A stretch of 64,000 bases of DNA from Corynebacterium kroppenstedtii (GTDB lineage Bacteria; Actinomycetota; Actinomycetes; Mycobacteriales; Mycobacteriaceae). A program made the position numbers and the translations under genes. The notes beneath the pieces are model-generated. The model was given only the letters and a program-made list of their open reading frames with translations, ran no database searches and was not told the DNA's origin. Position 1 is the stretch's first letter. The number at the start of each line of letters is the position of its first letter. Location of the stretch: assembly GCF_016894245.1 (NCBI RefSeq), contig NZ_CP069792.1, positions 434,001 through 498,000 of the forward strand, in the 5' to 3' direction. Positions 48,728-64,000 of this stretch are shown here, in pieces.

Positions 48728-50593
48728 TTACTTCTTCTTCATGTCATCCAGGGCTTTCTTGCCATCCTTATTGGCTGTCTTAATCCTGGTCTTGAGGAAG
48801 TCGAACTCGTCCCAAATTTCTTGGGGGACCTTCGGACCCAAGCTCTTCAACCAACCTTCGGTATCGGAGAGATCCATCTGCCATTTATCCGCAGGTGCGG
48901 TCAGCGCAGCTTTGACATCCTTGGGGTCTGTGTCTAGGCCATCGATATCGATGTCCTTCGAGTAGGCGGTGTATCCGACCACCGTCCTCTTTGCATCGAC
49001 GCGCCCCTCGATCCGATCCACGATCCACTTAAGGACACGGCTGTTTTCGCCGAAGCCCGGCCAGAGGAAACGACCGTCGTCGCCGCGGCGGAACCAGTTA
49101 ACCAAGAAGACCTTAGGCAGCTTGTCTCCACCCTTCTTTCCGATGTCCAGCCAGTGCTGGAGGTAGTCGCCCACGTTGTAGCCGATGAACGGAAGCATGG
49201 CCATGGGGTCGTAACGAAGGGTACCGACCTTGGCTTCGGCAGCTGCGGCGGTTTGGCCGGAGGCTAGCGTTGCACCGATGAAGGTTGCGTGCTGCCAGTC
49301 GATAGCCTCTGTCACCAGCGGCACGGTATCGGGGCGACGTCCACCGAAGAGAATCGCGTCGACCGGCACGCCTTTCGGATCATTAAACTCTGGCGCAGCT
49401 ACAGGGCATTGTTCGATCGGAACGCAGTACCGAGAATTCGGGTGCGAGGACAAGCAATCCTCGTCTGGTGTCCAATCCTTGCCTTTCCAGTCAATGAGGT
49501 GATCAGGCTCATTCTCCAGGCCTTCCCACCACACATCGCCATCGTCGGTCAACGCGACGTTGGTGAAGATGTTGTTTCCTCGCTCCATGGTCTTCATGGC
49601 GTTAGGGTTGGACTTGTAGTTGGTTCCCGGGGCGACCCCGAAGAAACCATTTTCTGGGTTGACCGCATATAGCCGACCATCGTCACCAAAGTGGAGCCAA
49701 GCGATGTCGTCGCCGATGACCTCGGCTTTCCAGCCGGGGATAGTCGGTTGAATCATCGCTAGGTTAGTCTTACCACACTGAGAGGGGAATGCCGCACAAA
49801 TGTGGTATGGCTTGCCCTCCGGGGAGATGAGTTTCAGGATCAGCATGTGCTCTGCCATCCAGCCTTCATCCTTGGCCATGACAGAAGCAATACGGAGGGC
49901 GTAGCACTTCTTTGCCAAGATGGCGTTACCGCCATAGCCAGAACCGTATGACCAGATCACACGGTCCTCAGGGAACTGTGTGATGTACTTCGTCTCATTG
50001 CACGGCCACTTGACGTCTTCTTCGCCTGGCTCCAGCGGGTGACCAACGGAGTGAAGCCCCTTAACAAACGGGCCATCACCGATCTTGTCGAGGGCTTCCT
50101 TACCCATGCGGGTCATAATGCGCATCGACATCACAACATAGCCGGAGTCGGTGAGCTCGATCCCTAGCTTGGGGTCGGGATCGGTGATCGGGCCCATGCA
50201 GAATGGAACCACGTACATGGTCCGCCCCTTCATGGAACCCTTGAAGTGCTCGCTCATTTCGGCACGCATCTCGTCCGGGTCGCGCCAGTTGTTCGTCGGG
50301 CCGGCGCCATCTTCAGTCTTCGAGCAGATAAAGGTCCGAGACTCGACTCGAGCAACATCTGCAGGGTCAGACGATGCTAAGTATGAATTGGGTCGCTTTT
50401 CCTCATTAAGCTTGACCAGCGTCCCCTTCTTGACGAGATCCTCCGCGATAGCTTCCCATTCTTCGTCAGAGCCGTCGCAGAAAACGACCTTATCGGGCTG
50501 GCACAGTTCAGCACACTCCGAGATCCATTCGAGCATGTCTTGGTTCGTTGTAGGGGCATTACCTTCGAATCCCGGGATCGTAGGTACTGACAT
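48728..50593 (-). CDS. pck: Phosphoenolpyruvate carboxykinase (GTP)
   Basis: A 621-residue GTP-dependent PEPCK that makes PEP from oxaloacetate, the first step of gluconeogenesis. Motifs: substrate arginine region [39 protein letters not shown], the P-loop [13 protein letters not shown] with the reactive Cys, and [21 protein letters not shown]. The ATG at 50593 has a near-perfect GAGGAGG six bases upstream. The position beside the trmB group is the same as in C. glutamicum. Together with pyc it balances the anaplerotic node, important for growth on fatty acids. Confidence 0.97.
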
Positions 50594-53398: not shown

Positions 53399-54151
53399 GT
53401 GTCCACGAATCTTGAAGGCCCAATTGGCGAGCTCCCCCACGGTCGGCCCCCGCAAACCGTCGTCAACGACGGTCGAGATTACCCCCGACTAGGAACCGTG
53501 AGCTTCCGACGAGGAACACTGACACCTCGTCAACAAGAACTGTGGGACGAGAAATGGCCAACATACGGTCGCGTCCTCGATGACACTGTTATTGATACCG
53601 ACGGCTGGTTCGGTCGATCCGCCCCCACCATCCTCGAGATCGGATCAGGAACCGGCACGTCCACAATAGCTATGGCATCCCGCGAACCCGACCTCAACGT
53701 CATCGCGGTTGACCTCTATAAACCTGGACTCGCGAAACTGCTCGGCGCCTTCACCCGGGAAAACCTCACCAATATCAGAATGGTTCGTGGCGATGGCGTC
53801 GAAGTTCTCCACCGCATGATTGCACCAGAGTCGCTATTAGGGGTGCGAATCTTTTTCCCCGACCCCTGGCCCAAAGCACGCCATCACAAACGTCGCATCA
53901 TACAGTCAGGAACGCTGCATTTAATCGCATCCCGGCTCAAACCCGGTGGGGTACTCCACGTCGCAACTGATCACACTGGCTATGCCGAGTGGATCGACGA
54001 CCTCGTCACCGTGGAACCGCTCCTTGAGTACAAGGGCTGGCCATGGAATGAGTCCCCCATCCTGACCGACCGTCAACTTACCACCAAATTTGAAAACCGC
54101 GGGCTTAGCATGGACCACACAATCAGGGAATACTTGTGGAGGCGGAAGTGA
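53399..54151 (+). CDS. trmB: tRNA (guanine-46-N7)-methyltransferase
   Basis: A 250-residue SAM-dependent enzyme. The SAM-binding loop [16 protein letters not shown] is near residue 77, the second strand is [11 protein letters not shown], and the family signature [16 protein letters not shown] follows. It makes m7G46 in the tRNA variable loop. The GTG start at 53399 has no ribosome binding site and an AT-rich AAAATAAC just upstream, consistent with a leaderless transcript. Its stop overlaps the NYN gene start (GTGA). In mycobacteria and C. glutamicum the trmB-NYN pair is followed by the MmpL3-type exporter; here it is not. Confidence 0.95.
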
Positions 54152-54840
54152 CTCACCACGCAAACACCACATCCCGAGGCCATTCATATTCAGCAGCACC
54201 CGACGAAACTCCTTCGGCACTGCTCATTTGGGATGCACCCAATATCGATATGGGCTTGGGATCAATTCTCGGTGGACGACCAAGCTCTGCCTACCGCCCA
54301 CGCTTCGATTCGCTCGGACAATGGCTGATCCACGAAACAGACCAGCTCAGCGCTTCCCTCGACGAACAGATCGAACCAGAAGCCACGGTCTTCACCAACA
54401 TCATGCCCGGGTCCGCAGACTCAATCCGCCCGTGGATCGACGCCCTCCGCAATCTCGGTTTCGCGGTTTTTGCTAAACCCAAGCTTTTCGACGACACCGA
54501 TGTCGATCCGGACATGCTGGCGCACATCAACCGCAGGTACGACGAGGGTGTGCTGCGCTCGGTGTATGTTGCCAGCGCTGATGGCAGAAACTTTCAACCA
54601 CGGCTAGAAGAACTGGCTGCCGAGGGTATCGACGTTGCCGTGCTGGGTTTTTACGAACACGCCACCTGGGCGGTGATGAGCGAGGCCATACGATTCGTCG
54701 ACCTCGAAGACATCCCGGATATCTTTACCACGCCACTCCCGCGAGTAAATCTCGACCGCCTTCCCGACGAGGGCGCGTGGCTACAGCCGTACCGCTCCCT
54801 TCGTTCTGTGAAGTCATCTCATCATGACGGCCAGTCGTGA
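54148..54840 (+). CDS. NYN-domain protein
   Basis: About 230 residues. The NYN (PIN-like nuclease) fold opens with [19 protein letters not shown], including the first conserved Asp and Asn, and later has [30 protein letters not shown] with the Asp of the active site. Family members are RNases, but this subgroup is untested. The GTG at 54148 is preferred over 54136 because GGAGG lies five bases before it and it gives a GTGA overlap with trmB. It corresponds in position to M. tuberculosis Rv0207c beside mmpL3. Confidence 0.8.
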
Positions 54841-54853
54841 GGGAGCTGATGCA

Positions 54854-56047
54854 ATGACTGTAGAAGCGGAAACACCTGGACGAAAAACCGAGGTCACTGC
54901 GCGCGCAAAGGACGCAGTGCTGGCCGACGCACAGTCAGCCACGGGTACCACTGTCGCCCCGAAGGAACAAGTGTCGCGCCGATCTCACACCTCAGGAAGC
55001 GTCAAAGTTCGGCCCCTCCCCTGGTGGCGACGAGCCATCACTCTAATGAGGCACCCTCTGGTTCGATTAGTGTTCTTCCTTGCTGTGGTAGCCGCCCTCA
55101 CGATGGTCGTCCGAGGCAGTATTGATTTCGTTTCAGAGGGTCTGGGCTACATCGGATCGGCAAACACCACGTGGATCATCGTCGGAGTCGCTTTTATCGG
55201 CCTTTCAATCCTGGCCATGGGCGAGCTCATGTACGTCCTCCTACGCAGCGCTGGGGTCCCCTGCAAACGATCCAGTGTCTACGCCCTCACTCTGACGTCG
55301 AACTCTGTGTCTGCCACTTTCCCTGGTGGTCCAGCAATTTCACTAGCGATGATTTTCCGTGAGCAGCACAAATGGGGAGCTTCTTCAGTGATTGCTAGCT
55401 GGTATATGGTGATCTCCGGTGTCATCGCGTCAGGTGTGCTAGCTCTTTTCGGCCTCACCGCATTCTATTTCTTGGGTGCCAAGGTGAACCCGTGGACACT
55501 CGTCATCTCTCTTACCGCTGTGGTTGTCGTATTACTAGTTGTGAAATGGTTAGCAGCACATCTCTCTAGCGTCGAGCGCGTTGTCGTCACCATCCTTCGC
55601 AAGGTCAACCACTATCGGAACAAACCTCTCAACACTGGAATCGACAAAGCACGCGAAAGCATTAAGACCCTCAGCAGTGTTGACCTGCCGTTACCGAAGC
55701 TTGCATTGGCGGCCATGTGGTCAGGCGTGAACTGGGGCGCAGATTGCCTCTGCCTCCTCGTTTGCCTATGGGCGGTGGGGGCACACCCCAACGTGGCATC
55801 GGTTGTCCTCGCGTTCGTCACTGCCAAAATCGTGGGAACTGCGCAGGTCACGCCGGGCGGGTTGGGACCCGTCGAGGCAACGATAGTCGGCACTCTCGTC
55901 GCCACCGGTATGACGTCGGCAACCGCGCTTGCTGCCACCATTATTTTCAGAATGATTTCGTTCATTCTCCTCGCCGCTGTGGGCTGGATCATTTTCCTCA
56001 TTCAATATGCGGGACCCAAACGCGCGATGATGTTGGGGCGGTCCTGA
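54854..56047 (+). CDS. LPG-synthase-TM (UPF0104) flippase-like membrane protein
   Basis: About 397 residues: a polar ~70-residue N-terminus, then about eight helices with the lysylphosphatidylglycerol synthetase membrane-domain pattern (SNSVSATFPGGPAISLAMIFRE, GVNWGADCLCLLVCLWAVGA, KIVGTAQVTPGGLGPVEATIVG). There is no aminoacyl-transferase domain, so it is not MprF itself; relatives are presumed lipid flippases. The ATG at 54854 has GGGAGC upstream; the frame from 54824 is weaker. It lies 13 bases behind the NYN gene, where related genomes carry mmpL3/cmpL1 first. Confidence 0.85.
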   Translation: MTVEAETPGRKTEVTARAKDAVLADAQSATGTTVAPKEQVSRRSHTSGSVKVRPLPWWRRAITLMRHPLVRLVFFLAVVAALTMVVRGSIDFVSEGLGYIGSANTTWIIVGVAFIGLSILAMGELMYVLLRSAGVPCKRSSVYALTLTSNSVSATFPGGPAISLAMIFREQHKWGASSVIASWYMVISGVIASGVLALFGLTAFYFLGAKVNPWTLVISLTAVVVVLLVVKWLAAHLSSVERVVVTILRKVNHYRNKPLNTGIDKARESIKTLSSVDLPLPKLALAAMWSGVNWGADCLCLLVCLWAVGAHPNVASVVLAFVTAKIVGTAQVTPGGLGPVEATIVGTLVATGMTSATALAATIIFRMISFILLAAVGWIIFLIQYAGPKRAMMLGRS

Positions 56048-56154
56048 GGAACCGCACGTGAACCTCATACAGTACGGACACACTAAAAACGCACTGACGA
56101 TACTGACAATAGAGGCGCTAGATAATGGCGCAATACTAAGGATTGGAGTTCATC

Positions 56155-56646
56155 ATGTCACAGTCCGCTTCTCCGGGATCCGAGACTGACCCAAACCGTG
56201 CACCAGGCACGCAAGTGAGCTACGTGCAAGCAGCGGTGATGGACATCATCGCAGTTCTGCTCTTCGCCCTACTTGCGCGTATCGCCCACAATTCACCGGA
56301 ATTGCCATTCAGTTGGGGCGGTGTCCTCGCTACTGCTTGGCCATTCTTGCTCGGCGCGGCCGCCGGGTTCGGTGTCATGGCCATCCTCCGCCGCCCCGCC
56401 GGCACTGTAATCCCGTTCGGTATTGCTGTGTGGATTCCCGCCGTCATTGTGGGCCTCACGATTTGGGGTTTCCACCACAGCAAAGTCCCGCACTGGTCAT
56501 TCATCATCGTGGCGACGGTAACGTCGGCGATCTTCATCCTCGGATGGCGGGGCCTGACCCGCCTCTCTGCGTCACGCGCGCACAAGAGGCGTGAGCGTCG
56601 ACAAGCTCTTATCGACGCCGAAGAAAAGCACAAAGCCGACAAGTGA
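56155..56646 (+). CDS. DUF3054 membrane protein
   Basis: About 163 residues with four helices (AAVMDIIAVLLFALLARIAH, WPFLLGAAAGFGVMAILRRP, WIPAVIVGLTIWGFHHSK, FIIVATVTSAIFILGWRG) and a basic Arg/Lys/Glu-rich tail. This matches DUF3054, a small actinobacterial membrane family of unknown role. The ATG at 56155 has GGAG eight bases upstream. The gene lies 107 bases behind the flippase-like gene on the same strand. Confidence 0.82.
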   Translation: MSQSASPGSETDPNRAPGTQVSYVQAAVMDIIAVLLFALLARIAHNSPELPFSWGGVLATAWPFLLGAAAGFGVMAILRRPAGTVIPFGIAVWIPAVIVGLTIWGFHHSKVPHWSFIIVATVTSAIFILGWRGLTRLSASRAHKRRERRQALIDAEEKHKADK

Positions 56647-56706
56647 CGAGTAAATAAATGACCCCGCTATGCATGGCGAGAAATAGCGGAGTGCTTCAAT
56701 AGTTGT

Positions 56707-58209
56707 ATGTCACATACCGACCCGGCCCAAGGATCCACCGGATCCACCCTTGCTGGACGCGGAGAAACCACCTCCAAAACATTCTTCGGCCACCCGTGGG
56801 GGTTGGCGAACCTCTTCGGAGTGGAGATGTGGGAGCGCTTCAGCTTCTACGGGCTCCAAGGCCTTGTTCTCTTCTACCTGTATCACAGCACCGACGACGG
56901 CGGGCTGGGCATGTCCGAAAGCCTGGCAACGTCAATCGTCGGTGCCTATGGTGGTGCGGTTTTCCTCGCCTCGATCGGTGGTGCGTGGATTTCTGACCGT
57001 GTCCTCGGGGCAGAAAAGACACTGTTTTATTCGGCGGTGCTTATCATGTTGGGGCACATGTCGCTTGCTCTTCTGCCCGGCTTCACTGGACTGATCATTG
57101 GTCTTGTCCTGGTTGCGGTGGGGTCAGGAGCCCTGAAAACGGCGAATTCCGCGATGGTCGGAACTTTATACGAAGAGGGCGACCCCAAACGCGATGGCGG
57201 TTTTTCGTTGTTCTACATGGGCGTGAACATCGGTGCCTTGATTGGCCCTCTGGTGACAGGCGCCCTATGGAAGCAGATGGGTTTCCACTGGGGCTTCGGA
57301 GCAGCTGCGGTTGGTATGGCTTTGGGCCTTATTCAGTACATCCTGATGAGGAAGACCACGTTGCAGAATGCTGGCGCCAAAGCTCCGAATCCTTTGCGGC
57401 CTGATGAACGCGTCAAGTCGTGGGGTGGGGTCATCGCGTTGACGGTCATCATTGTTGGGCTTGCTCTACTCTTTCCCACTTCTCAATTGTCGACGTATGT
57501 TGCGGTCATTGCGATTGTCGCCGCAGTTTATTTCTGGCAGGAAATGTACCGTTCTTCATTGGTGAATCGGACGGAACGCCATCGTTTGTTGGGGTTTATT
57601 CCGATGTTCCTGGCCGCTTGCGTGTTTTGGTCGATCTATCAGCAGCAGTTCACGATGGTGGCAATGTATGCGGATAAGAAGCTGGACTTGAGTTGGGGTT
57701 TCATGGATACGCCGGCCTCATGGGTTCAGTCGATTAACCCGATCTTCATTATTCTTTTAGCACCGCTCTTCACGATTCTGTGGGATCGTCTGGGTACACG
57801 TCAGCCGTCTACTCCGGTGAAGTTTGGCGTGTCGGCCATTATGTTGGGGCTTGGTTTGGTTCCTTTCCTTTTCTTTGTGAGCTACGCTGACCATTCAACG
57901 CCCTACTACATGATTGTTGTGGTGTTGTTCCTTTTCACTGTGTCAGAGCTGTTGCTGTCTCCAGTTGGACTGTCTATGTCAACTAAGCTTGCTCCGCGTG
58001 CGTATCCGGCACGAATGGTTGCGATGTGGAATCTAACCTCCGCTGTGGGTACGGCTTTAGCAGGTACGCTGGCCGGTTTTTACAATCCGGAGTCCGCACA
58101 TGATTCCACAATCTATTTCATAACAATGATCTGCGTGTGTGTGATGATCGGAGCCATCATTCTGGCGGTATCGAAGCCGATTGTGAAGCTTTTCGATGGT
58201 GTGAAATAG
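56707..58209 (+). CDS. POT family peptide:H+ symporter
   Basis: A 500-residue transporter with 12-14 helices. The proton-coupling motif ExxERFxYY appears as EMWERFSFYG in helix 1 (after FFGHPWGLANLFGV). The PTR2 family signature region AYGGAVFLASIGGAWISDR and the later FTVSELLLSPVGLSMSTKLAPRAYPARMVAMW are also clear. It imports di- and tripeptides with protons. The ATG at 56707 is used. It is convergent with the secreted repeat-protein gene, and the 116 bases between them hold no strong terminator. In C. glutamicum the accD3-pks13-fadD32 genes lie in this general interval. Confidence 0.93.
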   Translation: MSHTDPAQGSTGSTLAGRGETTSKTFFGHPWGLANLFGVEMWERFSFYGLQGLVLFYLYHSTDDGGLGMSESLATSIVGAYGGAVFLASIGGAWISDRVLGAEKTLFYSAVLIMLGHMSLALLPGFTGLIIGLVLVAVGSGALKTANSAMVGTLYEEGDPKRDGGFSLFYMGVNIGALIGPLVTGALWKQMGFHWGFGAAAVGMALGLIQYILMRKTTLQNAGAKAPNPLRPDERVKSWGGVIALTVIIVGLALLFPTSQLSTYVAVIAIVAAVYFWQEMYRSSLVNRTERHRLLGFIPMFLAACVFWSIYQQQFTMVAMYADKKLDLSWGFMDTPASWVQSINPIFIILLAPLFTILWDRLGTRQPSTPVKFGVSAIMLGLGLVPFLFFVSYADHSTPYYMIVVVLFLFTVSELLLSPVGLSMSTKLAPRAYPARMVAMWNLTSAVGTALAGTLAGFYNPESAHDSTIYFITMICVCVMIGAIILAVSKPIVKLFDGVK

Positions 58210-58325
58210 GCGCATAGCCACCGAGGCAGTTTCCCCCACGTGCTGTCGTGGTAGTCCACTACCCAACGGTGGCGGCCAAGGACTCTCATTCTCTTTGAGC
58301 TGGATCCTCTTTATGCTGGCAGTTC

Positions 58326-59777
58326 TCACACGGAAAGGTTGAGATTCACACCGAGGGAGGCCTGCGCGTTGATGCTGACCCCTAGCTGGCCCTGTGGTGC
58401 TGACGCACACGGTTTCTTTTCCGGCGCTGGCTGCTGGCATGGGTCATTCTTCACCTGCTGCTGAACAGGACAGTTCCCCTGCACATTATGGGCATTACCG
58501 CTGTTAATCGCTTCCGACACGTTGCCGGCAATCGACAAACCAGCGTTAATCAGGTTTGACGCATTAGCGTTAATCGCTGCTGCCGCATTGGCCTTTACCG
58601 TTGCTGCGGCGGCGGCAATGTGCTGATTCACTGTTTCCTGAGCGGCCCGAATATCTTTCTCGGTGAGGAGATTCCTCTGGGCAATGGGCGTGCCCTTCTC
58701 TACCGTTCGCGACACGGTCTGGATGGGCGTGCCTTTTTCAATCGGGGTGCCCTTCTGGATGGGCGTACCCTTCTGAATCGGGGTCCCCTTCTCTACCGGG
58801 GCAGACACCTGAGAGTTACGGTTCTGCTCAATGATGCGCTTCTGCATGCTTGTACGCTGCTGCTCAACGGCTTGTTCGGCAGTGGTGGACGAGATACTGC
58901 CCTTGACGCCCCACACAATTCCTGACTTACCGATGCCACTAATTGCGATAGCGGACTCGTTAGTCGTCGTTCCATCCGCCTTCCATGCGTGGCGGGCCGA
59001 TGCAGCGAGGCGCTGGGCATCCCTCTGCTGGAGTGCCCCGCGGTCCGGTGGGCATGAGCAATCCGCGCTTTTAGCCAGCGAAGCTCCCGGCGTGGCGATA
59101 TGGCTCGCAATCCGGTTCTTATAGTCCATAGCGAGTTTCGCTACCGCAGTCACGCCGATCGCGCTTTCATTAGAGGTAGCTTTCGACTTAGCCTCGGCCT
59201 TGGACACTCCTCCAGAGCACGGGCCGAGCCCGGTGCGTGGCGCATGATCGCCACGACTACCGCGAGCACTATCTCCCGCGACAAGGTCTTTCCCACCGAC
59301 CTCTTTCTGCGATAACTGCCGGTTAACCTGGACAGTTTGAGCGTCGTTACGTGTCTGCTGATCAATCTGCACGGCAGCACGCTGAGGTGCAGTAGCTTTA
59401 GGGAGGGTTGCGGTGGATTGCGGCGTCATGCGCGGGATCTGCTTTTGCTGTACGCGGATTCCCTGAGCGATAGACTGTTGTGTGCCTCCGCGTTCAGACG
59501 CTGTGATGACCGTGTTCGTTTGTTTCGGTATTGTCTGCGCGGGTTTTGCCACCTGCTGATTCATTGTTTGCTGTGGCTTAACGGATACTGATTGCGGTTC
59601 GACAAATCCTCCGGCGAATGCAGCCGGAGCTGCTGCAGTGATGCCTACACACGCAATGCCCAAGCTCATTGCTGGAACAGCGAAGGAAGCACGGTCCCCT
59701 ATGCGCGTTTCACTGTCCCTGTGCTTTCCGCGGTATCCCCTGTGAGTTATCCGCGAAGAGATTTCGTTATCCCCCAT
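58326..59777 (-). CDS. Secreted KGTPI-repeat protein of unknown function
   Basis: About 483 residues from the ATG at 59777 (GGGGAA upstream). A long basic N-region and hydrophobic core (MSLGIACVGITAAAPAAFAGG) form a Sec signal peptide cut near AFA. The mature part is Gln/Ala/Thr/Lys-rich with a Cys-containing middle (DCSCPPDRG), two related SNESAIGV/TNESAIAI segments about 80 residues apart, five KGTPI copies between about 325 and 365, an Ala/Asn-rich helix and a Cys-rich end with alternating hydrophobics (GVSINAQASLGVNLNLSV). I know no family. It looks like a surface or matrix protein. Confidence 0.72.
   Translation of the reverse strand: MGDNEISSRITHRGYRGKHRDSETRIGDRASFAVPAMSLGIACVGITAAAPAAFAGGFVEPQSVSVKPQQTMNQQVAKPAQTIPKQTNTVITASERGGTQQSIAQGIRVQQKQIPRMTPQSTATLPKATAPQRAAVQIDQQTRNDAQTVQVNRQLSQKEVGGKDLVAGDSARGSRGDHAPRTGLGPCSGGVSKAEAKSKATSNESAIGVTAVAKLAMDYKNRIASHIATPGASLAKSADCSCPPDRGALQQRDAQRLAASARHAWKADGTTTNESAIAISGIGKSGIVWGVKGSISSTTAEQAVEQQRTSMQKRIIEQNRNSQVSAPVEKGTPIQKGTPIQKGTPIEKGTPIQTVSRTVEKGTPIAQRNLLTEKDIRAAQETVNQHIAAAAATVKANAAAAINANASNLINAGLSIAGNVSEAINSGNAHNVQGNCPVQQQVKNDPCQQPAPEKKPCASAPQGQLGVSINAQASLGVNLNLSV
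58686..58800 (-). repeat. KGTPI-coding repeats in the secreted protein gene
   Basis: Five codings of (E/Q)KGTPI, four of them back to back and the fifth after a TVSRTV spacer. Codon choice differs between copies, so the repeat is old or selected at protein level, not a fresh slippage product. Confidence 0.8.
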
Positions 59778-60053
59778 TGTATGTAATTCCCCTTTATTTC
59801 CTGGTGGCACGGGTTAGATCCCCCAGTCCACAGCGTGGAGTGCTTGAGGCTCTGAGCTACACCATGCCCACCGTCATATGCTTATGAGCCTTGAGGTGAC
59901 AATGCATCCTCATTGTGCCCAGTGATGACCTGCGATCCCCTCACAGGCATGTCTGGAATGACTCAGGACTTTAATGCCCTCTCCATAAAATACATGGTGG
60001 TTGTGCCAAAGAAAAGAACGATCGTCATCTTCTTTCGTTTTACAGGGAGATTG

Positions 60054-60284
60054 ATGGGTGATAGTGAACACAGCTCTAAGGAAACTGACAGGTTCACTGG
60101 ATGGAACAACCAGAGAATGTCCGTAGATTCATTGCTGTCAGTGGCTGACGGAGACTACAACAGGATTCTCAGTTTTCTACCGACACAAAGTGCCACAGGT
60201 ACGCAGTGTCACAGCACCTGTACACCGTTAACCACTGAAAAAGGACTCAGGCTTTATGCCGACGCTACTAGGAAAGAAGGGTGA
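60054..60284 (+). CDS. Possible small gene with Thr/Ser/Cys-rich C-terminus
   Basis: A 76-codon frame from the ATG at 60054, four bases behind a good GGGAGA ribosome binding site, to a TGA at 60282-60284. It is followed 37 bases later by a textbook plus-strand terminator. The product starts MGDSEHSSKETDRFTGWNNQ and has a central acidic part (VADGDYNRILSFLP), then a Thr/Ser/Cys segment (TQSATGTQCHSTCTPLTT). The genes on both sides are on the minus strand, so the terminator needs some plus-strand transcript. It resembles a small peptide precursor, but no modification enzyme is in the window. A non-coding RNA is the alternative. The rest of 59778-60388 shows no gene. Confidence 0.4.
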   Translation: MGDSEHSSKETDRFTGWNNQRMSVDSLLSVADGDYNRILSFLPTQSATGTQCHSTCTPLTTEKGLRLYADATRKEG

Positions 60285-60320
60285 TCTATAGGACTCTGAG
60301 GGAGCAATGGGACAGAGAAG

Positions 60321-60354
60321 CCCGCACCTGCTGGGGAGCAAGGTGCGGGTTTTT
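60321..60354 (+). terminator. Rho-independent terminator on the plus strand
   Basis: CCCGCACCT (60321-60329) pairs with AGGTGCGGG (60341-60349) around an 11-base loop, followed by TTTTT. The minus side lacks a T run, so it acts on plus-strand transcription even though no established plus-strand gene ends here. Confidence 0.85.
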
Positions 60355-60388
60355 CATGTCAGCGAATCCGCGACCTATGCGGCGTGAG

Positions 60389-61336
60389 CTATGTGTGGTT
60401 ATTGATGAGTCCTTGAGCCCACTGAACCATCCACGCGATAGACGTCGTGCCCTCAATAACGTTCGGATTGGTGCCATATTGAATATGCAGCGAATTACCC
60501 GTGAATAGCGCGTCCACGTTCTCTGGCTCAACCTTCAAGCTAGTTGGCATATCGCACACGGCGTCACCCGGCGCGCAAATTTCATTGACGCGATCGTTCA
60601 GATCTCCCATTCCCCCAGACCGCGGACCACGGGGAGTAAAACCAGGTACCACATTGCCCAGCGCCGCTGCGAATGGTTGCAAGGCAATTTCGGATCCAAC
60701 GCCTTTTGGTTGAGCCCCGACCGTTTGTCCTTCACCGGTCACCCGACGCGGATCAGCAAGTGCTGTGACTCCCGCGACTGCGTCGCTCGGCACGACACCA
60801 CGGTTATTTCCTATGTCACTCGCAACATCACCAGCTACGGCCGCTCCCTGAGAGAAACCCATGATGGCGAACTTCGTCGCAGGGCAATGACCATGAGTTG
60901 CGGACAATTCTGCGTTGACGATGCGGACTCCTTCATTGGCCGAGTCCGCATAGTTCATTTGGTCTAGCGTTGCCAGAGTTTTCATCTGAGCAGGATAATT
61001 CGCCGTCCAAACCTTCACTGACGATGAATCATTATTCTGCGTCAAAGGTCCCGTAACGCCTTGAAGCAAGGCATTGGGAAATTGCGTCGGATGCAGGGGA
61101 TCATCATTCGTCGAGGATTCCCCTGTCCCAGGCACAGCGATAACTTCGACGGACGGGCAATCTGCAGGTTGTTCCGGATTACCGGATCCTTCACCATTGT
61201 TCGAGGGGGCTCCCGGGCCTTGACCGCGAGACCCCATCCACTGCGCTATTCCGACAGCAATTGCACCCAGAAGAATGAGAACACCAACGATGACCAGTAG
61301 TTTGCGAAATACTGATCGAGACCCTTTCTGCGCCAT
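60389..61336 (-). CDS. Cutinase-like lipase/esterase (Rv3802c type)
   Basis: A 315-residue membrane-anchored serine esterase. An N-terminal helix (LLVIVGVLILLGAIAVGIAQW, about 13-33) anchors it, followed by a Gly/Pro/Asn-rich spacer. The catalytic triad is S162 in IMGFSQGAA, D258 in CAPGDAVCD and H284 in SLHIQYGTN, with the cutinase disulfide partners. In mycobacteria Rv3802c is an essential envelope lipase encoded beside pks13-fadD32 and the mycolyltransferases. Here pks13 and fadD32 are absent but the cutinase, the lipoprotein and the esterase remain in order. Confidence 0.9.
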   Translation of the reverse strand: MAQKGSRSVFRKLLVIVGVLILLGAIAVGIAQWMGSRGQGPGAPSNNGEGSGNPEQPADCPSVEVIAVPGTGESSTNDDPLHPTQFPNALLQGVTGPLTQNNDSSSVKVWTANYPAQMKTLATLDQMNYADSANEGVRIVNAELSATHGHCPATKFAIMGFSQGAAVAGDVASDIGNNRGVVPSDAVAGVTALADPRRVTGEGQTVGAQPKGVGSEIALQPFAAALGNVVPGFTPRGPRSGGMGDLNDRVNEICAPGDAVCDMPTSLKVEPENVDALFTGNSLHIQYGTNPNVIEGTTSIAWMVQWAQGLINNHT

Positions 61337-61360
61337 AGCAACAGGTTACATGGCTGGCAT

Positions 61361-62023
61361 CTAGCCACTACACAAGTCGCTGTCGGCAGACTCGGTGATG
61401 GAGCGTTCCACCTGGTCCAAGGGTTGGTTCGTAAGCTTCTGCTCAATCAGCTGTCCTGCCATCGCTCTGACCGAGAAACTGTCCTGCCCCTCGGCCTTCG
61501 CCTGGCAATATTCCATAGCGGATGCGATCACTTGGTCGGCTGCGGCGCCATCAACGTTGATCTTGTCTTTTTGCATCGTCGCCAGGAACTTTTTTTCTTG
61601 GTCCGTGCGCTGGCCACGATTCGGTGCTGGAACGTGTGAAACTTCAACCGGAGTTTCATCATCCTTGGCATCAGGGTTATCTCCTATGCCATCGTTGGAA
61701 TCCGCCGATTTTGAAGAACTTGCCGACGACGAACTCGCAGATGACCGTGCCGAACTACTCGATGCACTGGATGACCGGGCTTTAGTGGTGGTGGCGGAAT
61801 CAGAATCATCTTGGGTGGCTGTGGAGCCATCACCACATGCTGCAAGGACGCCCGCCCCCAGCACAGATGCTAAAACTAGCGCAGTACCCCGCCTAAATGA
61901 CGAAGGACGGTTCCAGGCCCGACGATTCCAACGACGCGGGGAAACCAATGGCTGGTCCGCCTCGTAACCATCAGCGTCATCAGCTGCATTCGAGCTCATT
62001 GTGAATCCACCGCGTGAAGTCAT
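61361..62023 (-). CDS. DUF732-like lipoprotein
   Basis: A 220-residue lipoprotein. A long basic N-region is followed by the core LVLASVLGAGVLAACG, with the lipobox Cys at residue 63. Then comes a Ser/Ala-rich linker with runs of serine, and a small helical domain (KKFLATMQKDKINVDGAAADQVIASAMEYC ... DSDLC) with two Cys, resembling DUF732 secreted proteins. The ATG at 62023 has GGGAAGGA eight bases upstream. Its position between the cutinase and the mycolyltransferase-like gene matches the C. glutamicum order. Function unknown. Confidence 0.8.
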   Translation of the reverse strand: MTSRGGFTMSSNAADDADGYEADQPLVSPRRWNRRAWNRPSSFRRGTALVLASVLGAGVLAACGDGSTATQDDSDSATTTKARSSSASSSSARSSASSSSASSSKSADSNDGIGDNPDAKDDETPVEVSHVPAPNRGQRTDQEKKFLATMQKDKINVDGAAADQVIASAMEYCQAKAEGQDSFSVRAMAGQLIEQKLTNQPLDQVERSITESADSDLCSG

Positions 62024-62144
62024 GCGTGTGTCCTTCCCATCGTTCCCATCGACGCTGTTATCTCGTCGCCGTTTCTCGTCGCTGTCATCGCGCCATCCTA
62101 GTGACGGATGGCCTTAGCATTCACGATCATCATTTGCCGCGAAG

Positions 62145-64000
62145 TTACGGTTCCTGAACCTTACCGTTCGTTTCTTTAATAGTGCCGTGCTGGAAATCAA
62201 TGGTCAGACCTCCAGCCGGGATATTTGCCATATCTGAGGTCGGGAATCCGTACTTCCCACCTTGGGCACCATTTTTGTCCCACGTGTCGAAAATCCCGCC
62301 CTTCATGATGACATGAGCGCCGGTATCTGGGGACCAGTAAATATAGCCCTTGTCGAATTCGGTGAACGCTCCGCCGTCAACTGGTACTTCGTCTGTCTTT
62401 GCGAAGCCAAGTTTGTCTACTCCGCCAAAGTCTTTGAACTTCTTGGCAATCTCACCCTGCACATAATGCGCTACTCCGTCTTTGGTCCGCGTCACGAAGC
62501 CGTTTTGGAACTCTTGGAGCGCACCTCCGGCCACTGATTTCTCATCGGCCGTCGGGTAACCCAGTTTTCCGGTTTCATAGCCTGTTGTTCCCCACGCGTC
62601 GAACATTTCCGGCTTCAACGCGTGCGGCCCGGTCTCAGCATTCCAATAGATGGATCCGTGCTCGAACGTCACGAAACGGCCTTTGCCGTCCGGAGAGGTA
62701 ATCTCTTCACTCGTCGGATATCCCAAGAATGACTTGGGTCCTCCCACCTCGGCATAATGAGCACCGATACGGCCCCAAAGGTTATGCGCTCCTGTCGACG
62801 GGCTCCAGAACGTACGCCCATTCCGGAAGTCCTGGATTTTCCCTCCATTGGCGCCGTCGTACTCGTCGGAGGTGCATCCACCAAGCTTGTCTTGATCTTT
62901 CAACGCGGCATTAGCAATTTCGCCCATGGGGACACAGTTGGCACCACGATCGTTCTGTGACAATCCGAGAGCATCTGCCATATACGGCCACGACTTACCG
63001 AGCTCGAATTGCCAATAGGGCCAGGTGTGGGTTCCAGAATTCCGAAACGCAGTCGTGACATTGATACCTGCACGCTTGGCGTGGCTGACGAATGTTTCCG
63101 AGGTCATCCGAGCTAGTGCTTCTTGCCCGAACGTTAATCCTTTCTTCGGAAGCCCTGGTAAAACCTGGCTTTCGTCATCATAGGATCCTGCTGCTCCAGA
63201 TCCTGCTGACACATAGACACCGGTGTTCTTCAACTTACTCACGTTAAGCTTCGGGTCGTGCTCTTTCCAACCTTCTGAACCATACGGTCCCCACATGTTT
63301 TCGGCGTTGAAGGGTGACACTGTCTTCATGACAATACCGATGCCCTCACTCATCCCAGGGGAACTCGTGTCCAGGTAACCTGAGTATGAGCCGACGAAGT
63401 TAAACATGTCTGGGTGACGTTCAGCAAGGTTCATAGCACCCGTCGCACCAGCAGACATACCGAAGACGGCGGTCTTATTATTAGCCCTCCAACCTTCCTT
63501 AAGAATCGGGGGAAGTTCCTGAGTGAGGAATGATTCCCACTTGTAGAACTGGCCACTATCTGCATTCAGCCAATCGGTATAAAAGGAAGCGAGCCCCCCC
63601 ACTGGCAATACAACGTTGACATTGCGGTCCGCGAATTGCTGAACAATGTTGGTGGCGGCCGTCCACCCGTTCTCAATTTGGTTAGGGACGATACCGTCAA
63701 GCCCCAGAACTGTGGGGAATGTTTTGTCCGGCTGCGAGTACCAATCTCGGGCGAGGAGGATCTCAACTTTAACGGGATTACCGGGCATCGCCTTGGAGTT
63801 GATATACAGCGCCACACGTCGATCAGTCAACCAATCGACGTGGTCAATGGACACCCCATCGGGAAGGTTGTCGAGCTGTTGCTGCTCCGTACGGATCGGG
63901 AGGGGCTCAGAAGGAAGAGTCAAGGGGAACGCATTCTTGGCGGCTTCTCTTTGAACCGAATCAGGAACATCGGCATGCTCTGCTGGAGCGGCTCCATCGC
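62145..64000 (-). CDS. Mycolyltransferase-like secreted esterase with LGFP repeats, 5' end outside window
   Basis: The frame is open to the window edge, so the signal peptide lies beyond 64000. About 618 residues are visible. The first ~375 form an esterase-D/antigen-85-type alpha/beta hydrolase: nucleophile in AVFGMSAGATGAMNLAERH, then a His in SGTHTWPYWQFEL. The usual elbow of mycolyltransferases is GxSMxG, here GMSAGA. The C-terminal ~220 residues are four clear LGFP repeats (FLGYPTSEE, KLGYPTADE, KLGFAKTDE, KYGFPTSD) and one degenerate unit (KLGGCTSDE), known to tether such proteins to the wall. It resembles C. glutamicum Cop1/PS1. In a mycolate-free cell the acyl substrate must differ or the enzyme is a relic. 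Confidence 0.9.
   Translation of the reverse strand, partial: DGAAPAEHADVPDSVQREAAKNAFPLTLPSEPLPIRTEQQQLDNLPDGVSIDHVDWLTDRRVALYINSKAMPGNPVKVEILLARDWYSQPDKTFPTVLGLDGIVPNQIENGWTAATNIVQQFADRNVNVVLPVGGLASFYTDWLNADSGQFYKWESFLTQELPPILKEGWRANNKTAVFGMSAGATGAMNLAERHPDMFNFVGSYSGYLDTSSPGMSEGIGIVMKTVSPFNAENMWGPYGSEGWKEHDPKLNVSKLKNTGVYVSAGSGAAGSYDDESQVLPGLPKKGLTFGQEALARMTSETFVSHAKRAGINVTTAFRNSGTHTWPYWQFELGKSWPYMADALGLSQNDRGANCVPMGEIANAALKDQDKLGGCTSDEYDGANGGKIQDFRNGRTFWSPSTGAHNLWGRIGAHYAEVGGPKSFLGYPTSEEITSPDGKGRFVTFEHGSIYWNAETGPHALKPEMFDAWGTTGYETGKLGYPTADEKSVAGGALQEFQNGFVTRTKDGVAHYVQGEIAKKFKDFGGVDKLGFAKTDEVPVDGGAFTEFDKGYIYWSPDTGAHVIMKGGIFDTWDKNGAQGGKYGFPTSDMANIPAGGLTIDFQHGTIKETNGKVQEP

Follow-up and report, generated by a model that had tools for sequence, protein, structure and literature searches.

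The stretch of DNA analyzed here, referred to as the window, comprises 64,000 nucleotides of a Corynebacterium kroppenstedtii genome (bases 434001–498000 of a finished single contig of 2,483,614 bases, or 2.48 Mb, with a completeness of 99.99%). Its right-hand end contains a mycolic acid locus, which lacks the genes pks13, fadD32, accD4 and cmpL1 and retains a Culp6-type cutinase and mycolyltransferases of the antigen 85 type. The cutinase was found to be 95% identical to the cutinases of C. pseudokroppenstedtii MC-17X and C. parakroppenstedtii MC-26, and the surrounding gene order is the same. Therefore, the genome was assigned to the C. kroppenstedtii complex. The original prediction, made from the sequence alone, had named C. 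kroppenstedtii as an example of the mycolate-negative corynebacteria to which it compared the locus.

The pck gene (48728–50593), recognised by eye only, is located upstream of the locus. On the plus strand, the locus starts with trmB (53399–54151; TIGR00091 with 132.6 bits, above the cut-off), followed by a gene with an NYN domain (54136–54840; PF01936), a flippase-like membrane protein (54824–56047; TIGR00374), a DUF3054 membrane protein (56143–56646; PF11255) and a POT oligopeptide transporter (56707–58209; TIGR00924). The minus strand carries a secreted protein with KGTPI repeats (58326–59810), the cutinase (60389–61336; PF01083), a small lipoprotein (61361–62023) and a PS1-type mycolyltransferase with LGFP repeats (62145–64000), whose gene runs on outside the window, up to the equivalent of position 64181. 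Family models confirmed the gene order predicted for 53399–64000 with small corrections of names; the name DUF732 given to the lipoprotein was not supported by Pfam at an E-value of 1e-3.

The PS1-type esterase combines an antigen-85-type domain (PF00756) with PF08310, of which four LGFP stretches were detected, and matched the structure 6sx4 (Protein PS1) with 666.6 bits. For the cutinase, the nearest NCBIfam model was the carboxylesterase Culp6 (NF050160; 238 bits, under its cut-off of 570). The lipoprotein shares 26–37% identity with its counterpart at the corresponding position in mycolate-competent relatives, a term used here for Pks13-bearing genomes on the basis of genes, not lipids. 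The repeat protein had no match in NCBIfam and matched the repeat model DUF963 over a single short stretch (24 bits, barely over the cut-off).

Two gaps were identified in this gene order. At the first (54824–54840), the frames of the NYN gene and the flippase-like gene overlap by 17 bases. Judged from the gene order of relatives, this is the site of the exporter gene cmpL1 (mmpL3), which was located between the NYN and flippase genes in 10 of 10 mycolate-competent locus maps reaching that point; in the window the site is empty. The second gap comprises the repeat protein gene and the junction between it and the cutinase gene (59811–60388), where accD4, pks13 and fadD32 are missing. As predicted, tblastn searches of the locus with Pks13, FadD32, AccD4 and CmpL1 resulted in zero matches at E ≤ 1e-4, the AccD4 search being confined to the locus; the AccD4, Pks13 and FadD32 queries were Mycobacterium proteins.

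For Pks13, FadD32 and CmpL1 the search was extended to the whole genome, as the original prediction had proposed, and no intact copy was found elsewhere. The acyltransferase domain PF00698 had no match in the 99.99% complete contig, while a control search was positive in C. glutamicum; therefore the genome encodes neither Pks13 nor a type I fatty acid synthase (FAS-I). The Pks13 model was run on 221 Corynebacterium genomes, evenly drawn from a larger group and including the present one. The best E-value was 1.3e-150 or better in 207 genomes, whereas in the other 14 it did not go below 5.8e-18; the family cut-off was passed by 201 of the 221. The 14 Pks13-poor genomes are G000 (the present genome), G001, G013, G034, G056, G069, G077, G099, G102, G123, G154 and G195, together with the incomplete assemblies G078 (77%) and G119 (53%), which were left out of clade assignment and mapping.

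A panel was formed from these 14 genomes and 24 of the remaining 207, hand-picked for spread. The best FadD32 score was 44 bits in the present genome and at most 178 bits in all 14 Pks13-poor genomes, compared to 837–1093 bits in all 24 mycolate-competent genomes. By the genome-wide absence of pks13 and fadD32, the genome fits the gene-loss type of mycolate-negative Corynebacterium. From its gene content, the lineage would be unable to make or export mycolic acids.

For the analysis of the ancestral gene order, four further mycolate-competent genomes (G080, G175, G164 and G039) were selected for a POT gene near pks13, resulting in a set of 28 mycolate-competent genomes chosen by us from the 207. 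In these four the order is trmB, NYN, cmpL1, flippase, DUF3054 and POT, followed on the opposite strand by accD4, pks13, fadD32, culp6, PS1, mytA, ubiA, pap2 and glfT2 (trmB of G039 lies beyond the fetched stretch, and G080 carries two mytA genes). The present genome and three near relatives, here called clade K, show this order minus cmpL1 and minus accD4-pks13-fadD32. The KGTPI-repeat protein fills the second gap in 4 of 4 clade K genomes and was found at no other mapped locus; its repeats are arranged in tandem, and the other three copies are 90–91% identical to the present one. In seven genomes designated clade A (G001, G034, G056, G069, G099, G102 and G154) the same two gaps were found, the second one holding ACT, UPF0210 and TM2-type proteins, recognised by eye. 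In both clades, the mycolyltransferases and the Culp6 cutinase next to the gap have stayed intact.

The third type, clade O (G195), keeps trmB, a cmpL1 remnant, the flippase and DUF3054 genes, one PS1-type protein, ubiA, pap2 and glfT2. The locus of G195 yielded neither NYN nor mytA, and a search of its genome at an E-value of 1e-3 gave no culp6. The cmpL1 remnant (L049:11078-12724) lies at the ancestral site and encodes 549 residues, which match a full-length relative with about 30% identity across 284 residues.

The original prediction assumed a single clean excision with both flanks kept. The flanks are indeed kept, but the gene order rules out the loss of one block: two excisions took place at the locus, and the flippase, DUF3054 and POT genes between them were retained. 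An insertion of POT in place of the mycolate genes is ruled out as well, since the POT gene occupies the same slot in the four selected mycolate-competent genomes, which makes it an older neighbour. It is intact in three clade K genomes; in G077 it reads as two overlapping frames (L040:11606-13104), which could be either a pseudogene or a sequencing error.

A loss of aftB had been suspected because of its absence between mytA and ubiA, and was ruled out as part of the event, since clade K keeps an intact relocated copy. In the present genome this copy encodes 765 amino acids and is located at G000 C1:673643-675868 (within L059:1634-3928). AftB is an arabinosyltransferase thought to make the sugar to which mycolates are attached. 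It is surprising for such an enzyme that a 14-row AftB profile gave zero matches in 11 of the 16 mycolate-competent genomes searched.

The MMPL transporters of the genome were also compared. With the MmpL3 model, the best stretch reached 174 bits in the present genome (247 bits for the best whole protein) and at most 224 bits across the Pks13-poor genomes, compared to 388–753 bits in the 24 mycolate-competent genomes. Two MMPL proteins exceed the Pfam cut-off, and a third frame of 664 amino acids lies just under it (19.7 bits). The two proteins match transporters of relatives at 56–58% and 48–51% identity; judged by size and chromosomal order, these transporters are probably those listed as CmpL2 and CmpL3 in a table of PMC4287177. 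A relocation of CmpL1 to another site is ruled out, since both proteins above the cut-off match other transporters of the relatives. CmpL1 and CmpL4 have been described as essential for cell envelope biogenesis (PMC4287177). In the present genome, which was the clade K genome taken into this comparison, no CmpL1 and no CmpL4-like protein was found.

The number of losses was estimated from a tree of GlfT2, UbiA, Pap2 and TrmB (41 rows, with TrmB in 17), calculated with IQ-TREE under the simpler model LG+G4. Clade A groups with the four POT-bearing mycolate-competent genomes (support 100/100), adjoining G164 and G175 (97/98). Clade K branches off separately, at a fork close to the base of the genus that the tree does not resolve, and clade O is placed among other mycolate-competent genomes. 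K and A as one clade were rejected by the approximately unbiased (AU) test (p-AU 1.7e-7), as was the grouping of K, A and O (p-AU 1.4e-36). The plain reading of this tree is that comparable losses occurred independently in at least three Corynebacterium lineages. Following Baek 2018, clade A probably represents the amycolatum/lactis group and clade O the otitidis group.

The retained enzymes were analyzed for selection and for their catalytic residues. In clade K, the ratio of nonsynonymous to synonymous substitution rates (dN/dS; simple counting method, four species) was determined to be 0.033 for mytA, 0.044 for PS1 and 0.058 for culp6, compared to 0.032 for glfT2 and 0.030 for ubiA. The values were 0.111 for the small lipoprotein, 0.123 for the repeat protein and 0.201 for the relocated aftB, the latter compared to 0.055–0.195 in four mycolate-competent sets. 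For clade A (five of seven genomes) dN/dS was 0.067 for PS1, 0.090 for mytA and 0.083 for culp6, compared to 0.037 for glfT2 and 0.059 for ubiA. The mycolate-competent sets ranged from 0.043 to 0.101 for mytA and from 0.099 to 0.192 for PS1 (four sets), and from 0.051 to 0.165 for culp6 (three sets). A fifth set (G164/G175) was set aside, with dN/dS of 0.14–0.40 for all compared genes and overlong ubiA and culp6 frames, and several of the glfT2 frames compared are truncated where the stretches end. The frames of mytA, PS1 and culp6 are intact in 4 of 4 clade K genomes. Thus, the mycolyltransferases and Culp6 of clade K are under strong purifying selection.

Two truncated PS1 duplicates (G123 L093 and G195 L097) were dropped before catalytic and motif residues were counted. 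All 12 clade K enzymes, all 20 clade A enzymes and all 57 locus enzymes of the 28 mycolate-competent genomes carry the catalytic Ser, Glu and His, whereas the sole locus enzyme of clade O reads Gly, Glu and Arg (Ser to Gly, His to Arg). By sequence relation (PF00756) and by these three residues, the retained enzymes of K and A belong to the antigen 85/MytA family.

The motif LDGLRA is different. Its Asp and Arg (D..R) align to residues 41–44 of chain 1sfr_A; we take them to be the residues usually numbered Asp40 and Arg43 in antigen 85, which presumably hold trehalose. All 57 locus mycolyltransferases of the 28 mycolate-competent genomes carry the intact pair, compared to none of the 12 clade K enzymes (8 of them at the locus). 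In clade K, PS1 reads D..V, mytA G..A and a third enzyme elsewhere in the genome G..G, each in 4 of 4 genomes, so that the replaced residues are identical within the clade. In PS1 of the present genome, the Arg is replaced by Val and the catalytic residues are kept. In clade A, PS1 reads D..A (7 of 7) and mytA D..W (5) or D..Y (2), so the Arg is gone in 14 of 14 orthologues; the PS1-type enzyme of clade O reads D..A. The D..R pair or its Arg was replaced in parallel in the retained locus enzymes of K and A. By this pair, the clade K enzymes fall outside the presumed trehalose-using MytA/antigen 85 subgroup, and the clade A orthologues lack its Arg.

Conserved columns, defined as those with one residue in at least 93% across the 28 mycolate-competent genomes, were examined as well. 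Departures were found at 11 of 65 columns for mytA and 18 of 154 for PS1 in clade K; for the majority of clade A rows the numbers were 7 and 10, two of the seven clade A mytA rows (G154 and G102) being a third copy. Elsewhere in mycolate-competent genomes, none of 22 enzymes from 20 stretches picked from a listing carries D..R, and one of these is an orthologue of MytC (Cmt1; 714 bits). The published behaviour of MytC fits this: it does not efficiently use trehalose monomycolate as acceptor, whereas MytA uses it as acceptor, accepts palmitoyl-trehalose and transfers the palmitoyl group (PMC11927696). A quick tree of 97 rows was calculated without the six motif columns; it represented clade K by G000 and G077 and clade A by G056, G099 and G154, the rows of G001, G034, G069, G102, G013 and G123 being left out. 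The locus enzymes of K and A fell among the D..R orthologues, and the 22 other enzymes formed a separate branch, with 98% support in the Shimodaira–Hasegawa-like approximate likelihood ratio test (SH-aLRT). The tree has long branches according to a warning of the tool, one of which bears the third clade K enzyme.

The best explanation for these observations may be that the retained acyl enzymes moved off trehalose in the mycolate-free lineage, to which we assign a probability of about 0.55. With pks13 and fadD32 (and accD4 at the locus) gone from one gap of the ancestral locus and cmpL1 from another, the secreted enzymes would have ceased to move mycolate between trehalose molecules. Their Ser-Glu-His chemistry could then have been redirected to ordinary acyl esters without a trehalose carrier, either by transfer of plain fatty acyl groups onto a cell-wall sugar or protein, or by hydrolysis of extracellular lipids by a bacterium without fatty acid synthase. 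A more specific version is less probable: mycolate-free corynebacteria would not simply have lost a mycomembrane, and at least two lineages may in parallel have turned the mycolyltransferase-Culp6 set into a system for acylating the envelope with plain fatty acids without a trehalose carrier, with the change of the LDGLRA arginine as its mark.

Several points weigh against the move off trehalose. The literature search surfaced no source for the trehalose contact of Asp40 and Arg43. The third mycolyltransferase copy of clade A, located past glfT2, carries D..R (six found, in L142-L144, L094, L095 and L098; the G001 stretches showed none). An enzyme of the old type may thus still act in clade A, where some trehalose chemistry may persist. 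Clades A and O keep the CmpL4-like transporter, which was found in three clade A genomes and G195. Left-out mycolate-competent rows depart at 0–10 (mytA) and 0–19 (PS1) of the conserved columns, comparable to clade K; the totals of departures are on their own not extraordinary, and it is the LDGLRA site that stands out. The absence of D..R is by itself no mark of a mycolate-free enzyme, and since the motif-lacking MytC still takes mycolate from trehalose monomycolate as donor, the change may concern the acceptor side only. In clade A, dN/dS of mytA and culp6 exceeds that of glfT2. Moreover, purifying selection indicates a function, not which one, and the parallel change rests on few events, namely three independent losses.

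Other roles of the retained enzymes have to be weighed against this. They could serve scavenging, by hydrolysing host lipids, or the trehalose mycolates of mycolate-making corynebacteria among which the bacterium would live, for fatty acids. The genome lacks the acyltransferase domain and hence FAS-I, a related Demodex isolate reportedly has no FAS-I and depends on host-derived fatty acids (PMC13244258), and the catalytic residues are retained. The loss of the putative trehalose contacts disfavours a trehalose mycolate substrate and leaves host lipids as a possible one; in addition, the same genes are found in clade A, whose fatty acid synthase lay outside this comparison. Altogether, we consider scavenging rather unlikely.

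A role at the cell surface, in which the proteins would be bound to the wall through the LGFP repeats and mediate adhesion without acting as enzymes, fits the retained repeats and the retained length of PS1. Antigen 85 proteins bind fibronectin. The complete conservation of Ser, Glu and His in K and A makes this role unlikely, all the more as the clade O enzyme shows what happens without catalytic constraint, and as mytA, which is short and has no LGFP match in Pfam, has a lower dN/dS than any other retained enzyme of clade K. Finally, the enzymes could be relics on their way out, their motif changes being neutral drift after the loss of the substrate. Such decay is suggested by the clade O enzyme, which has lost Ser and His. 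For clade K it is very improbable, given dN/dS values about as low as those of GlfT2 and UbiA, intact frames in all four genomes and replaced motif residues that are identical within the clade.

The retained enzymes raise two testable questions, namely the role of antigen-85-type enzymes in mycolate-free cells and the identity of the residues that bind the antigen 85 family to trehalose as a substrate. As natural knock-outs, the parallel losses indicate where the trehalose site of this drug-target family is likely to lie, and the motif could be used to predict from sequence whether a mycolyltransferase acts on trehalose.

The loss of fadD32-pks13-accD4 has been described for C. kroppenstedtii, C. 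amycolatum, C. lactis and C. otitidis (Baek 2018, PMC5936774; a 2021 survey, PMC8733736), with Tauch 2008 as an earlier source cited there. In C. kroppenstedtii, cmrA is reported to be lost as well (PMC5936774), and the species is counted together with C. otitidis among those without fas (PMC8733736). The legend of the synteny figure in PMC5936774 includes PS1, POT and UPF0210. A word search of the main texts of both papers returned no MmpL/CmpL, no mycolyltransferase, no antigen 85 and no statement of independent losses. The loss of mycolate genes in the group is therefore already known and on its own ordinary; the original reading of the locus is partly supported, the loss it described had been published, and it did not cover the fate of the enzymes left behind. 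At least three independent losses, and enzymes kept in K and A but altered at the site that distinguishes the trehalose-using members, were not found in print, in a search covering few subscription journals. A channel-forming protein was isolated from the mycolate-free C. amycolatum (PMC3658426), which hints at a residual outer layer in mycolate-free corynebacteria.

Compared to the published gene-loss species, the same operon is gone from the same place in the present genome. With respect to CmpL1/MmpL3 and CmpL4, two other MMPL proteins are kept, while CmpL1 and a CmpL4-like protein were not found. The protein mycoloyltransferase MytC (Cmt1) of C. glutamicum is similar in that its orthologue likewise lacks D..R, although its branch is separate from the K and A locus enzymes (98% SH-aLRT). 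The present enzymes are largely consistent with C. glutamicum MytA (PS1) and antigen 85 in family, in the Ser/Glu/His residues, in the LGFP repeats of PS1 and in gene position. They differ from these in the Arg of LDGLRA, which is lost in K and A, in the Asp, which is lost as well in clade K mytA, and in that they occur in clade K in genomes without Pks13.

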